DNA of 64,000 nucleotides from Bernardetia sp. ABR2-2B (lineage in GTDB: Bacteria; Bacteroidota; Bacteroidia; Cytophagales; Bernardetiaceae). The position numbers and the translations under genes are program-made. Position 1 is the stretch's first letter, and each line of letters starts with the position of its first letter. Below are positions 2,407-27,176 of the stretch, one piece after another. Under the pieces are notes generated by a model. It saw only the letters and a list, made by a program, of their open reading frames with translations. It made no database searches and was not told where the DNA came from. Location of the stretch: contig NZ_CP147020.1 of the NCBI RefSeq assembly GCF_037126435.1, forward strand, positions 372,001 to 436,000, written 5' to 3'.

Positions 2407-5400
2407 ATGAAAAATCAATTTCAATCTTTTCTACTATTATTTTTTATATCTATTTTTATAGTTCCTCTTACACATGCACAGGTAACTATATGGAATGAAG
2501 ATTTTACACTTGCTGATGATACTGAAACCGATGCAGGAGCAACAGCTTGGTCTGAATCTCCTAATGCACAAGGAAGTGTAGATGCAGGTTCTGTTCAAGG
2601 AAATGTATTTACTTGGGAAGATATTGATGGCGAAACTTCCGACGGAAATGAAGCTATTTGGTTGAGTCAGAGTATAGATATAAGTAATTATAATACAATT
2701 ACGGTTAGTGCTGATGTGAGAGGAACAAATAGTATGGAAGATGGAGAAGAGTATATAATATTAGAGTACAGTACAAATGGAGGAACAACTTGGACACAAT
2801 TCACAACTAATGGATTTAATGATGGAGATTTTTCTAATACATTCATAACTGCTTCCTCAAATGTCCCTAATAACACAACATTGCAGATAAGAGCAAGAGT
2901 ATTTAGTGACAACAATAATGAAGACCACGAACTAGATAATGTGTTGGTGCAAGGAATATTGAATACTACAAATCCAGCTACCTGTGGAGCAACACCTTTT
3001 TGGGATGAAGAATTTTCTTTACCAGATGGCACAGATTCAGATAATGGCTCAACAGCTTGGAGCGAAGCAGGAAATACAGGTGCAGGTGAGGTAAATGGAA
3101 ATGCTTATGTATGGGAAAATACAGGAGCTGCTGAAGGAATTTGGATAAGCGACCCTATTAATATAAGTGGACTAACAGATGTTTCTATTTCAATGGATAT
3201 ACAAAGCGACCCTGATATGGCAGGAGAACCTGATTATCTTATTATAGAATATACGACAGATGGAGGAACTACTTGGAACGAGTTTACTACAAATGGAAAT
3301 AATATAGGCGACTTTGGAAACCTAACAGCTTCTGTAAATTCTATCAATGGAACAACACTTCAAGTACGTGCTAGAGCTAGAAGTAGTGCAAATGGAGAAT
3401 TTCATACCATTGATAACGTACAAGTTTCGTGTGTTACAAATACTACTGGGGGTGGAGGAGGAACAGACCCAGACTGTGTTGCTCCCCTTGCTCCACCTAC
3501 TTTTACAGAAATTGCAGCCACTACTGGAGGGTTAGATGTTGGTGGTGGAAAAGATGGAGGGACAGCTTGGGGAGATTTTAATCAAGATGGCTGTTTGGAT
3601 TTGCTTGTCAATACAAACAATGGAAATAATAATGGAGGAGGAACACGTCTCTTTCAAAGTAATTGTGATGGCACATTCTTTCGTGTAGCTGAACCTAGAG
3701 TTCCTGCTGAGTTAGAAGATATTGTAAGAGAACGTAGTGTTATTTGGGGAGATATAAATAATGATGGTTGGTTAGATTTTGCTCGTAATACTTCTGCTAC
3801 TGGAAACAATCAATCTTCAATTCATTTTTATTTGAATGATGGAAATGCTCCTAACAATTCATTTATCCTTATTCAAACTGTTTGTAATGGTAGTGATAAT
3901 GGAAATGCAGGAGGAGTCGTTAATCCTGCACAACAAAATGAAATTGATAATGGAAGATTAGTTGATGGACAAAATACAGAAGGTTTGGGATGGTTAGATT
4001 ATAATAATGACGGCTTTTTAGACCTAGTTATAGAAAATCACAATCACGGAATTGATATTTTAGAAAATCAGTTTTTTTGGGGCGATTTAGCTGATGCTAC
4101 TCCAAATGATGCTGTAAGTATTATTAATTTAGGAGGTGTTACCTGCGACCACCCTAGCAATCCAAATGGAAACCCTAGAACATACCCTCCCTTTATACAC
4201 GTAACACCTGACGAAGACCCAAAAGGGCTAATTACAGGAGCAACAGATGGAGATTATCTAACTATTGGAGACTTTAATGATGATGGTTACTTAGATATTT
4301 TAGGACGAAAAAATAACGAACGTGATTTGTTTGCTAATAATGGTAATAATTTTTTTCCTGTCAATCTTACTTTTAACGGACAAGCAAATAATGGTAATAA
4401 AGGAGGAGTAGCTTTTTGTGATTTTGATAGTGATGGAGATTTTGACATTATTTGGACTTCAAACGATAATCAAACCAATGGAAATGAAAATTTTATTTGG
4501 ATGCAAACAGGTTTGTATTCAGAGAATTTTCTAAAACTAGACGGAACGAATGCTACTACACAAAGAAACCCTATAGATGGAGTTCTCAACAATGTAGATG
4601 GCTGTGCTTGTGGAGATATAGATAATGATGGAGATGTTGATTTATTCCTTTCAGCTGGAAATGGTTCTAGTTATATGTTCAGAAATGATGGAGTAGATGG
4701 AAATGGAGTTCCTATATTGGTAGATAATACAGCAGCTTATGGTATCAATGTAAATGCAAATGGAGAAGGTGTAAATTTAGTAGATTATGATAATGATGGA
4801 GATTTAGATTTGTATATTAATGTAAATGGTGGCGATAACCAGCTTTGGCGAAATGACTTACAATGCCCTAAGAATAATCTGAAAGTAGAAGCTCTAGTGT
4901 GTATAGAACCAGGATTATACAGAGAAGCTGTCGGAACAACAATACGTATAGAGAGTATGGACGGTACATTTTCAAGTGCTTTACAAGATGTAAACGCAGC
5001 AAAAGGACACGGTTCTCAAAATCCTCTTAAAGTTCCTTTTGGTATCCCTGATAATAATGACTTGTATCGAATTATTGTGCGTTTTCCTCCTTTTGGTGTA
5101 GATTTGGATGGAGATGGAACAATAGAAAGTCCTGATAATGGTTTTGGGCAAGATGAGGTTATTAGTGAAACCTATACTGTAGAAAACGTACGTCCTACTG
5201 ACTTTCCAGACCAAACAGTACGTATCACAAGTCAGTTTGCTATTGATGGTGCGACAGATTGTAATGGTGGACTTTTGCCTGTTGAGATGCTTTATTTTAC
5301 AGGAGAACAACTTATCTCTGGAGAGAACCTTTTGAAATGGGGAACAGCTTGGGAACGTGATAATGATAAATTTGTAATAGAACGTTCTTTTAATGGAACT

Positions 5401-25741: not shown

Positions 25742-25999
25742 AAAACAAATAGATTAATTTGGCAATTCTTTTTCAATTCTTGCATAAAAATGCACAAGAA
25801 TATCAATCTGCTTAAATGAAATTTATTCAGTAAAAAATGGCATAGTAGAAAATATCTGAAAAGATATTTAGATGATTTATGATACAATCTAAATAAATAA
25901 TTTCAATTCCCTCACTAAAAATAATTAATTAACTTCTATTTGTTTGTTTGTTTGTTGTTACTTGGCTATTACACCAATATTTTTTGTTTGACTGATTAC
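25742..25999 (-). other. Leader between the ncRNA pair and the RT start
   Basis: This 258-base AT-rich stretch has no gene. It has a (CAAA)n run at 25940-25955 on the minus strand. It also has an imperfect hairpin around 25775-25800 (ATGCA/TGCAT arms) about 40 bases before the RT start codon, which might affect translation. Confidence 0.45.
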
Positions 26000-26223
26000 T
26001 ATTTTGAAAACCTTCGTATTGTCTAAGGACTATATCTATCAACTCCAGACTAATGGGTACTACCGTTAATTTAAGAGCATCGCTCTGAAACCGTAAATTG
26101 ATGGTAGTACCTATTAGTCATCATAAAGATAGTATGTAGTGAAGTATGTTCTGTATAAAGGCTTGAATGACGAAACATCATTCGTTCTGATAATTAAATC
26201 AGAAAGCAAGGTATTTCAAAATA
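26000..26223 (-). ncRNA. Retron msr-msd RNA, copy 1 (proximal to RT)
   Basis: Read on the minus strand, a terminal a1/a2 stem joins 26223-26210 with 26012-26000 (ten continuous pairs, one bulge, three more pairs). Next come two msr hairpins. One is 26204-26198 with 26191-26185. The other, at 26083-26065 plus 100 (26183-26165), has the stem GAATGA/TCATTC closed by a G-UUU-C apex like the classical Ec86 msr loop. The msd is a long stem, 26048-26073 with 26094-26119 (26 pairs), topped by AGAGC-ATC-GCTCT and standing on a lower stem 26029-26040 with 26128-26140. A G at 26207 just after a1 is a branch-point candidate. No protein frame is present. Confidence 0.88.
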
Positions 26224-26241
26224 CTATTTTTAGAAAAATCA

Positions 26242-26462
26242 GTTATAAAATCTTCGTATTATCTGAGGACTATATCTATCAACTCCAGACTAACAACTAC
26301 TAGTGGTTATTTAAGTGCAGCGCACTTATACCGTAAATGACCACTAGTAGTTAGTTAGTCATCATAAAGATAGTATGTAGTGATGTATGTTCTGTATAAA
26401 GGCTTGAATGACGAAACATCATTCGTTCTGATAATTAAATCAGAAAGCAAGGTATTTACAAC
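26242..26462 (-). ncRNA. Retron msr-msd RNA, copy 2 (distal, directly after the promoter)
   Basis: It has the same architecture as copy 1, shifted by 240-241 bases. The msr side (26357-26457) differs from copy 1 at a single base, and the other flank (26252-26293) at two. The msd stem, 26288-26313 with 26334-26360 (26 pairs, one bulge), has a wholly different sequence (ACTACTAGTGG core) from copy 1. The apex is AGTGC-AGC-GCACT, a compensated change from copy 1. Its a1/a2 stem (26462-26455 with 26249-26242) also differs from that of copy 1 but pairs with itself. It is probably co-transcribed with copy 1 and the RT. Confidence 0.88.
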
Positions 26463-26509
26463 TTCTATGTTTTTTCTTTAAACAGACTTTTCTGTTTGTT
26501 TTGATATTT

Positions 26510-26548
26510 CAAATATAGGAATAAATTTCTAACCTGCAAAGCATTTGC
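26510..26548 (-). promoter_or_regulatory. Promoter of the retron transcript
   Basis: On the minus strand TTTG (26540 to 26537), 19 bases, then TATATTTG (26517 to 26510) is a full match to the Bacteroidota TTTG/TAnnTTTG consensus. Transcription would start near 26503, about 40 bases before ncRNA copy 2. The -33 element is part of a small inverted repeat, GCAAA-GCA-TTTGC (26536-26548), a possible operator. A hairpin AAACAGA-CTTT-TCTGTTT at 26480-26497 lies in the 5' leader. Confidence 0.7.
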
Positions 26549-26603: not shown

Positions 26604-27176
26604 TTATAAATAAAATTTCTTCGAACGAATCAGCGTTTCTACATCTTGAGCTACAAGATAACGAATAGATTTTTCCTCCTTTATCAGTTTTCTAATATAA
26701 GTAGCTGAAATATTTAATAAAGGAGCTTCTACAAATTTTATTTTTGGATGGTTATGAAACTCTGTTTTTGGCGTTCCTTCTCTTGGATAGACCAAAACAC
26801 CATAGTATTCCAAAATCTGTTCGTAGTTTTTCCATTTATGGAAATGTGTTAGATTGTCTTCTCCTATCAAAATCTGAAAATGATGCTCTGGGTATTTTTC
26901 TTGAATATAGGTTAGCGTATCTATGGTGTAACTTGGCTTTGGCATATTAAACTCTATATCACTAACGCTCAATTTTTCATTATCAGCAATTGCCAAACGC
27001 ACCATATCATATCTATCAAATTCATGAAGAAGTGATGATTTTTTTTTAAGTGGATTATGAGGAGAAACCACAAACCAAACTTGGTCTAAGTCTGAATTTT
27101 CTGCAATCGTATTGGCAGTAATCAAATGTCCTACATGAATAGGATTGAACGAACCAAAATAAAGTCCTATCTTCAT
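26604..27176 (-). CDS. nadD: Nicotinate-nucleotide adenylyltransferase
   Basis: This 190-residue enzyme joins nicotinate mononucleotide and ATP to give deamido-NAD. The nucleotidyltransferase signature GSFNPIHVGH is at residues 8-17, WFVVSPHNPLKKK follows near 34-46, ILIGEDNLTHFHKW is in the middle, and the ISATYIRKLI signature is near the C-terminus. Length and motifs are normal. It lies 12 bases after gmk in the same direction, so the two are co-transcribed. Confidence 0.93.
   Translation of the reverse strand: MKIGLYFGSFNPIHVGHLITANTIAENSDLDQVWFVVSPHNPLKKKSSLLHEFDRYDMVRLAIADNEKLSVSDIEFNMPKPSYTIDTLTYIQEKYPEHHFQILIGEDNLTHFHKWKNYEQILEYYGVLVYPREGTPKTEFHNHPKIKFVEAPLLNISATYIRKLIKEEKSIRYLVAQDVETLIRSKKFYL

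Follow-up and report, generated by a model that had tools for sequence, protein, structure and literature searches.

The standard picture of a retron is that of one reverse transcriptase (RT), one ncRNA and one msDNA. What, then, is to be made of a single RT gene that stands behind two ncRNA units, nearly the same in their flanks and different in their msd stems? Such a locus lies in a stretch of 64,000 nucleotides of Bernardetia sp. ABR2-2B (NZ_CP147020.1, positions 372,001 to 436,000), called the window below. The initial annotation, made from the letters alone, had described it as a retron RT with two tandem ncRNAs whose msd stems have diverged, and each part of this description is upheld by computation. 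With moderate confidence, we read the locus as one promoter-driven array from which one RT would make several distinct msDNAs, which may act as baits or sensors for a WGR/SWIM effector.

Retrons are recognized by an a1:a2 stem, msr hairpins, a branching G, a long msd stem and an RT with the motifs NAxxH, YADD and VTG. On the minus strand of the window, the two units are followed by the genes for an RT, a WGR/HEAT-ARM protein and a SWIM protein (Table 1), consecutive and on one strand, in a putative operon. All three proteins are typed as retron type XIII by the PADLOC-DB 2.0 profiles; for the RT, the runner-up family is at 1.3e-83, against 4e-171 for RT_XIII. NAKPH, YADD and VTG in this protein are what we take to be the retron RT motifs. 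The computed structure near the RT contains an a1:a2 stem, msr hairpins and an msd stem. Type XIII retrons (RT_XIII, WGR_XIII, HEAT-ARM_XIII, SWIM_XIII) have the same genes and an upstream ncRNA, usually of one unit in the loci surveyed; a single ncRNA per RT is usual rather than defining, and the window departs from it with two units, its relatives with up to six.

Table 1. Coordinates of the features of the window and of the arrays and genes compared with it
Feature	Position	Strand	Basis or remark
SWIM zinc-finger protein, 576 aa	18767..20497	-	SWIM_XIII 5.8e-236 (profile level)
WGR/HEAT-ARM protein, 1155 aa	20598..24065	-	WGR_XIII, E printed as 0, 1023 bits (profile level)
Retron reverse transcriptase, 535 aa	24134..25741	-	RT_XIII 4e-171; contains NAKPH, YADD, VTG
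Proximal ncRNA unit, copy P (earlier copy 1), msr and msd core	26010..26212	-	covariance-model match, 164.3 bits
a2 arm of copy P	26000..26014	-	fold and duplex energies
msd stem-loop of copy P, 27 pairs predicted	26046..26125	-	RNAfold
Candidate branching G of copy P	26207	-	TTGC nearly invariant in 42 units
a1 arm of copy P, one unpaired base	26208..26223	-	fold; cognate duplex -12.4 vs -4.2 kcal/mol
Distal ncRNA unit, copy D (earlier copy 2), msr and msd core	26250..26453	-	covariance-model match, 175.9 bits
a2 arm of copy D	26241..26249	-	fold and duplex energies
msd stem-loop of copy D, 30 pairs predicted	26286..26366	-	RNAfold
Candidate branching G of copy D (G in conserved CCTTGC)	26448	-	TTGC nearly invariant in 42 units
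a1 arm of copy D	26455..26463	-	fold; cognate duplex -7.6 vs -2.4 kcal/mol with the other a2
Bacteroidota-type promoter-like site TTG-N19-TATATTTG	26510..26539	-	ahead of copy D
nadD, identified by eye	26604-27176		upstream of the ncRNA units
L210 array	3104-3982
L211 array	3817-4699
Calothrix ncRNAs, in L119	5909-6093 and 11732-11921		beside WGR/SWIM genes
Calothrix RT	G776:C1:3054543-3055940

The initial annotation had called for covariance-model searches. Rfam 15 gave zero matches at gathering scores in the whole window, and its sole match at E≤1 near the locus was a microRNA model, with 21.6 bits against a threshold of 110. A model built for the purpose, R1, rests on an alignment of 42 units that includes the window and its relatives; it matches both copies, with scores that are not independent because these sequences entered the model. 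R1 comes without a separate false-positive control, and the tool itself describes the E-values it gives as rough.

How different are the two copies? Recounting confirms that the msr side differs at 1 of 101 bases (26116-26216) and the other flank at 2 of 42 (26012-26053), and the apical pair is swapped as claimed, A:T at 26076:26084 and T:A at 26316:26324. The middle has indeed diverged, at 21 of 62 columns (26054-26115), but to call the two stems unrelated went too far: TACTA and the apical ATTTACGGT...TTAAAT are common to both, and the change surrounds this common core. Both middles do fold into a long stem, predicted by RNAfold at 27 pairs in copy P and 30 in copy D, apical hairpin counted, instead of the 26 first given. 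The flanks are 97% identical and the msd 73%. What had been overlooked is that the outermost stretch, 26217-26240, which includes the a1 arm, has also diverged (13 of 24 bases differ) and that each unit has its own a1:a2 stem. In both copies, a1 favors the a2 of its own unit over that of the other, and the copies therefore have the look of complete units. The candidate branching G is assigned by analogy with known retrons.

It is clear that the tandem units are real and not an accident of assembly. Assembly duplication was considered and rejected because the copies differ in stem and in a1/a2 and because well-assembled genomes carry them, G001 being a single contig. In the window's own genome, zero additional R1 matches were found at E≤0.1.

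The 42 units of the alignment have a common anatomy: a1 is followed by CCTTGC, an msr hairpin like GATGATGTTTCGTCATC, then CATCACTA, ATCTTTAT and the long, variable msd stem; the stem is followed by GGAGTTGAT..TAGTCCT.AG....CGAAG and then a2. A pairing test covered 42 units from 15 arrays, and in 35 of them a1 binds its cognate a2 more strongly than any other a2, where 15 units would be expected. The summed cognate energy is -611, the permutation mean is -366, and none of 100,000 permutations reaches the cognate sum. This test was run without L072 (a near copy of L056), G904, G922:C343, G1135 and G1177. The seven units in which a non-cognate partner is best or equal belong to L076, L089, L109, L136 and L182; in L182 cognate and non-cognate pairings are alike on average (-10.0 vs -9.5 kcal/mol). 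Could the array instead be a single long RNA with internal repeats? This is unlikely, because the cognate a1:a2 pairing wins in 35 of the 42 units.

Covariation was examined in 12 units, 10 from the genus and 2 from G447, on the structure folded from copy 2. In these, 97.9% of 670 cells pair, compared with 86.7% in shuffles and at most 43.6% with the partners slid; changes in the msd helix are two-sided in 13 of 25 pairs and one-sided in none, and the covariation score was reached by none of 500 shuffles. A CTA in the middle of the msd helix is invariant across the 12. Among the matches used for counting G.T pairs (111 of 121, after 11 were added from L210-L212), G.T makes up 1.7% of 2830 predicted msd-stem pairs and 15.5% of 839 msr-hairpin pairs. 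This fits a stem that is kept as a DNA duplex, and it is only suggestive because much of the msr G.T is one conserved U:G.

Another question is how common such arrays are. The census covered 95 sources, the window and 94 loci, of which 80 are the closest relatives among the matches listed by a SWIM-based scan. At E≤0.1, R1 gave 110 matches in 87 of the 95 sources: one in 71, two in 12, three in 1 and four in 3. The expectation that a retron normally has one ncRNA per RT is borne out by the 71 of 87 loci with a single match. Sixteen of the 87 sources have more than one, and 12 of these are clear tandem arrays, with two units (the window, L056, L059, L072, L060, L089, L090, L097), three (L076) or four (L092, L109, L136). 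A few units score low, namely copy 4 of L092 and copies 1 and 3 of L109, at 63-85 bits. Further double ncRNAs were seen in L116 (7876-8375) and L115 (9838-10277), both probable arrays whose second match is cut at the contig end in the former and weak in the latter; L144 (11674-13157, 1 kb apart) and L119 each have two distant units.

The genus itself was surveyed for copy number, as the initial annotation had advised, and a single copy is not the rule everywhere. Two copies are present in four of six retron-bearing genomes, one in G003 and in G004, and G005 has none; other lineages have 2-6. Genome scans in which the best 150 first-look candidates were scored per genome gave exactly two R1 matches in each of G000, G001, G002, G006 and G023. 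Of 390 genomes in the window's order, 31 have an R1 match (E≤0.001), with tandem copies in seven (G000, G001, G002, G006, G023, G447 and G498, the last with the scores of L076) and at two separate places in G032, G047, G467 and G492. In the order to which the genome of L092 belongs, 21 of 348 match, with tandem copies in G769 (L092), G771 (L109), G904, G918, G922 and G1092; in the phylum of the L136 genome, 4 of 297 match, with close copies in G770 (L136), G1135 and G1177, the latter two judged from R1 only. In all three of these scans, of the two orders and of the phylum, the filters were stricter, and weak matches are lost by them. Counting each locus once and the two arrays of G922 apart, there are about 20 array loci of 2-6 units in Cytophagales, relatives of Saprospiraceae and Acidobacteriota. 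Retron arrays are real, and they recur. RT_XIII-like genes whose fetched flanks have no R1 match were also seen (L062, L063, L177, L178, in G032 and G047), in genomes that match R1 elsewhere.

As for the history of the arrays, a tree of 75 RT rows has 12 that bear arrays, and these need at least six gains or losses, of which well-supported branches force at least five; the branches that lead to some rows, L060 and L109 among them, are long. Left out of the tree are the 17 loci in which no RT was hit, L055 and L058 as duplicates, and L066, L067, L070 and L084. Three array groups appear: L060, L076 and L182 with the window's genus, the Saprospiraceae MAGs, and an Acidobacteriota row. In the clade of L060, L076, L182 and the genus, seven of nine rows have arrays.

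Are the units transcribed together? The site ahead of copy D was found with the Bacteroidota-type promoter consensus. Each of the six loci from the genus has a promoter-like TTG-N19/20-TAnnTTTG 53-65 nt before its first copy, and the motif is absent between copies. From this placement, the loci with one copy probably do have just one, and the pairs are probably co-transcribed. Outside the genus, the motif occurs in two of 12 other arrays, before copy 1 in L060 and between copies in L097. A Sigma-70-type consensus was uninformative, with 8 sites compared with 6.3 in shuffles. One might suspect truncation behind the single copy of G003, where the contig extends for no more than 663 nt beyond the RT on the upstream side; this is unlikely because a promoter-like site stands 65 nt before that copy.

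The heart of the matter is what happens to the stems. Over 30 pairs of tandem copies, the msd is 60% identical and the msr 78%. Flank and msd identities were computed on 102 of 110 units (104 R1 matches and six units of L182-L186). In the genus, flank and msd identities of tandem copies are.97 and.73 in the window, 1.00 and.87 in G001,.93 and.82 in G002, and.95 and.81 in G006. Between species, certain pairs are reversed:.90 in the flank and.96 in the msd for copy D of the window against copy P of G002,.88 and.98 for copy D of G002 against G003, and.88 and.99 for copy D of G006 against G003. These stems are 96-99% identical between species whose RT fourfold sites agree at 53-57% (.57 window/G002,.57 G002/G003,.55 G006/G003; window/G006.53), while their tandem neighbors differ. 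Other pairs have no msd excess (copies D of G001 and G002,.94 flank and.93 msd; G004 and copy D of G006,.94 and.93), and the stem of copy P in the window is unlike the rest of the genus (.69-.74). At flank identities of.85 or more, the median msd identity is lower in tandem pairs (15) than in pairs between loci (223) in three of three bins; the 15 are few and not independent, six of them coming from L136. Similar stems also occur inside arrays, as in copies 2 and 3 of L076 (msd 91%) and copies 2 and 4 of L109 (89%).

L210 and L211, with RTs 88.6% identical in amino acids and 78.5% in nucleotides, share three of their four stems, two in swapped order, and the fourth has no counterpart. The shared stems are at.84,.92 and.79, against.50-.62 for the other 13 pairs. 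Judging from the swapped stem types, shuffling or conversion of array units seems to take place over time. The picture fits flanks that are homogenized and stems that are individually maintained. In 42 dereplicated arms, from 93 of the 104 matches, TACTA recurs 14 times, CTATA 13 and ATACG 11; the top count of any 5-mer in 500 single-base shuffles is 8. The set of 104 omits L137 and L142 (same score as L128), the cut-off L102, L095 and second match of L116, and the weak second match of L115. This recurrence may in part be due to stems that descend from a common ancestor. A TACTATACG-like stem core was noticed across Bacteroidota and Cyanobacteria, for example in L077, L080, L073 and L133, and this TACTATACG-like core may be a protein-binding site.

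How, then, might such a locus work? In this type XIII retron, two self-contained ncRNA units lie in tandem, probably under the control of a single promoter. Each unit would fold through its own a1:a2 stem, with msr and flanks common to both. The single RT would reverse-transcribe each unit into its own msDNA, and the two msDNAs would have the base and the apical loop in common and a different duplex between them. In the studied retrons, according to PMC12548924 and the preprint PMC13405049, RT, ncRNA and msDNA restrain an effector, and the msDNA is described as a sensor whose trigger is a phage methyltransferase or a DNA-binding phage protein. Through the array, the WGR/SWIM effector would have a few msDNAs of differing duplex sequence at its disposal, and in defense these may serve as baits or sensors for phage proteins that modify or bind DNA. 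Because stems are kept across species while their neighbors differ, the array most likely supplies a set of different msDNA duplexes, each of which would be accessible to another phage activity, and different msDNAs may act as separate phage sensors. For the two independent sensors suggested in the initial annotation, the support from stem conservation is indirect. A wider and more tentative proposition, to which we give somewhat less credence, is that type XIII includes multiplexed retrons, with a heritable, shuffling stem repertoire on 2-6 ncRNAs, one RT (sometimes in trans) and one effector, by which several phage activities are watched.

Would the extra units not simply raise the amount of msDNA? 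This is the main rival reading: dosage, with stems that drift while they keep pairing, and with the consideration that identical tandem hairpins would recombine or cross-anneal. Nearly all changes in the 12 units preserve pairing, the msd is more variable than the msr among tandem copies and single-copy loci occur, all as such drift would have it. It fits poorly with named stems that are kept almost unchanged between species while RT fourfold sites agree at little more than half, with three of four stems still recognizable, two of them swapped, in L210 and L211, and with core 5-mers that exceed the shuffle maximum. Dosage with drift is weakened by this stem conservation, and we consider it rather unlikely. 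A different thought is that one unit is active and that the remainder are decaying duplicates or a regulatory leader. The low scores in L092 and L109 could be taken that way, but both copies of the window retain the conserved elements, the stem and a cognate a1:a2, and arrays persist in most rows of the clade that includes the genus, so that this idea appears quite improbable.

If several msDNAs are made, they could also be divided between the two accessory proteins of type XIII, different ones serving the WGR/HEAT and the SWIM protein and not different phage triggers. The six- and four-unit loci adjoin a diverged WGR/HEAT-ARM_XIII-like protein, as one could expect from such a division of labor; against it, single-unit loci (L065, L068, L069, and L058, for whose unit count L071 stands in) match both proteins, and arrays go up to four and six units. 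We regard it as improbable, if a little less so than a single active unit. Least credible of all is a CRISPR-like origin, in which phage DNA would be the source of the variable stems and the stems would guide its recognition. Constant flanks around variable inserts and the swapped order in L210 and L211 call such arrays to mind; the common core motif, however, speaks against random capture, and exact scans of viral contigs with three 20-base stems, taken from relatives' loci and not from the window, came back empty. The ncRNA flank motif likewise had zero exact matches in viral contigs.

The set of distinct msDNAs that we favor has parallels elsewhere. The window shares with classical retrons like Retron-Eco1 (Ec86) the a1:a2 stem, the msr hairpins, the candidate branching G, the long msd stem and the RT motifs, but these have one ncRNA per RT and the window two. 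We know of no natural arrays of classical retron ncRNAs. Titles and abstract openings gave no recognizable paper on natural tandem retron ncRNAs, and an earlier mention in print is possible. In engineered arrays for multi-site editing, several ncRNAs are likewise served by one RT; those are man-made, whereas the array of the window is natural and conserved. CRISPR arrays are also built of repeated constant parts and variable parts in a changeable order. TIGR arrays (PMC12045711), too, combine repeated constant and variable parts, and the likeness of both to the retron arrays lies in these parts and their changeable order. Unlike them, retron units are self-folding, full ncRNAs, apparently meant for reverse transcription, their variable parts are self-complementary, and the three stems tested had no viral DNA match.

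What can be gained from such arrays? Near-identical tandem template RNAs with different stems and end arms, together with relatives of 2-6 copies, suggest that a single enzyme may produce several distinct DNA probes rather than one. Natural arrays with different stems, some conserved between species, make a role of the msDNA stem sequence directly testable, and the copies within one cell are a ready-made comparison. As natural systems with one RT and several templates, some apparently with the RT in trans, they also bear on multiplexed DNA production and editing.

The point about trans arrangements comes from 17 SWIM loci without an RT in the fetched flanks, several owing to contig ends. In six cyanobacterial genomes searched as a whole, there is one RT_XIII match each, not beside an ncRNA. 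In Calothrix (G776), ncRNAs and RT share a contig, but the ncRNAs are found at 1.858 and 1.864 Mb, and the RT, with no R1 match near it, is at 3.055 Mb, about 1.19 Mb away. In the other five, the distance is unproven because the RT match sits on a different contig of a draft from that of the ncRNA; G775 has two ncRNA matches and the other four drafts one each, and the RT frames of G775 and G1125 contain a stop.

The largest arrays are also the most diverged. G904:C107 has six units and G922:C343 four, with msr and flank blocks repeated, stems that differ and low R1 scores (10.7-43 bits); in two stems of L214, the arms are perfectly complementary, over 26 bases in one and 27 in the other. A WGR/HEAT-ARM_XIII-like protein lies downstream of both arrays, and in G922:C343 a SWIM_XIII protein is also found before the contig ends. 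In G904 the RT and, by eye, a SWIM_XIII-like gene are on a contig other than that of the array, so the linkage is putative; G922 has one RT match, adjoining its other array. As loci, these diverged six- and four-unit arrays before a WGR/HEAT-ARM-like protein are L216 (3568-5809) and L215 (1158-2433), and they possibly form a separate subtype because R1 gives their units only 10-43 bits. Finally, G002 and G006, both of the genus, each carry another RT gene, which is different from the RT gene of the window and shows a weak relationship to it (G002:C1:4407810-4408559 and G006:C41:39795-40586).
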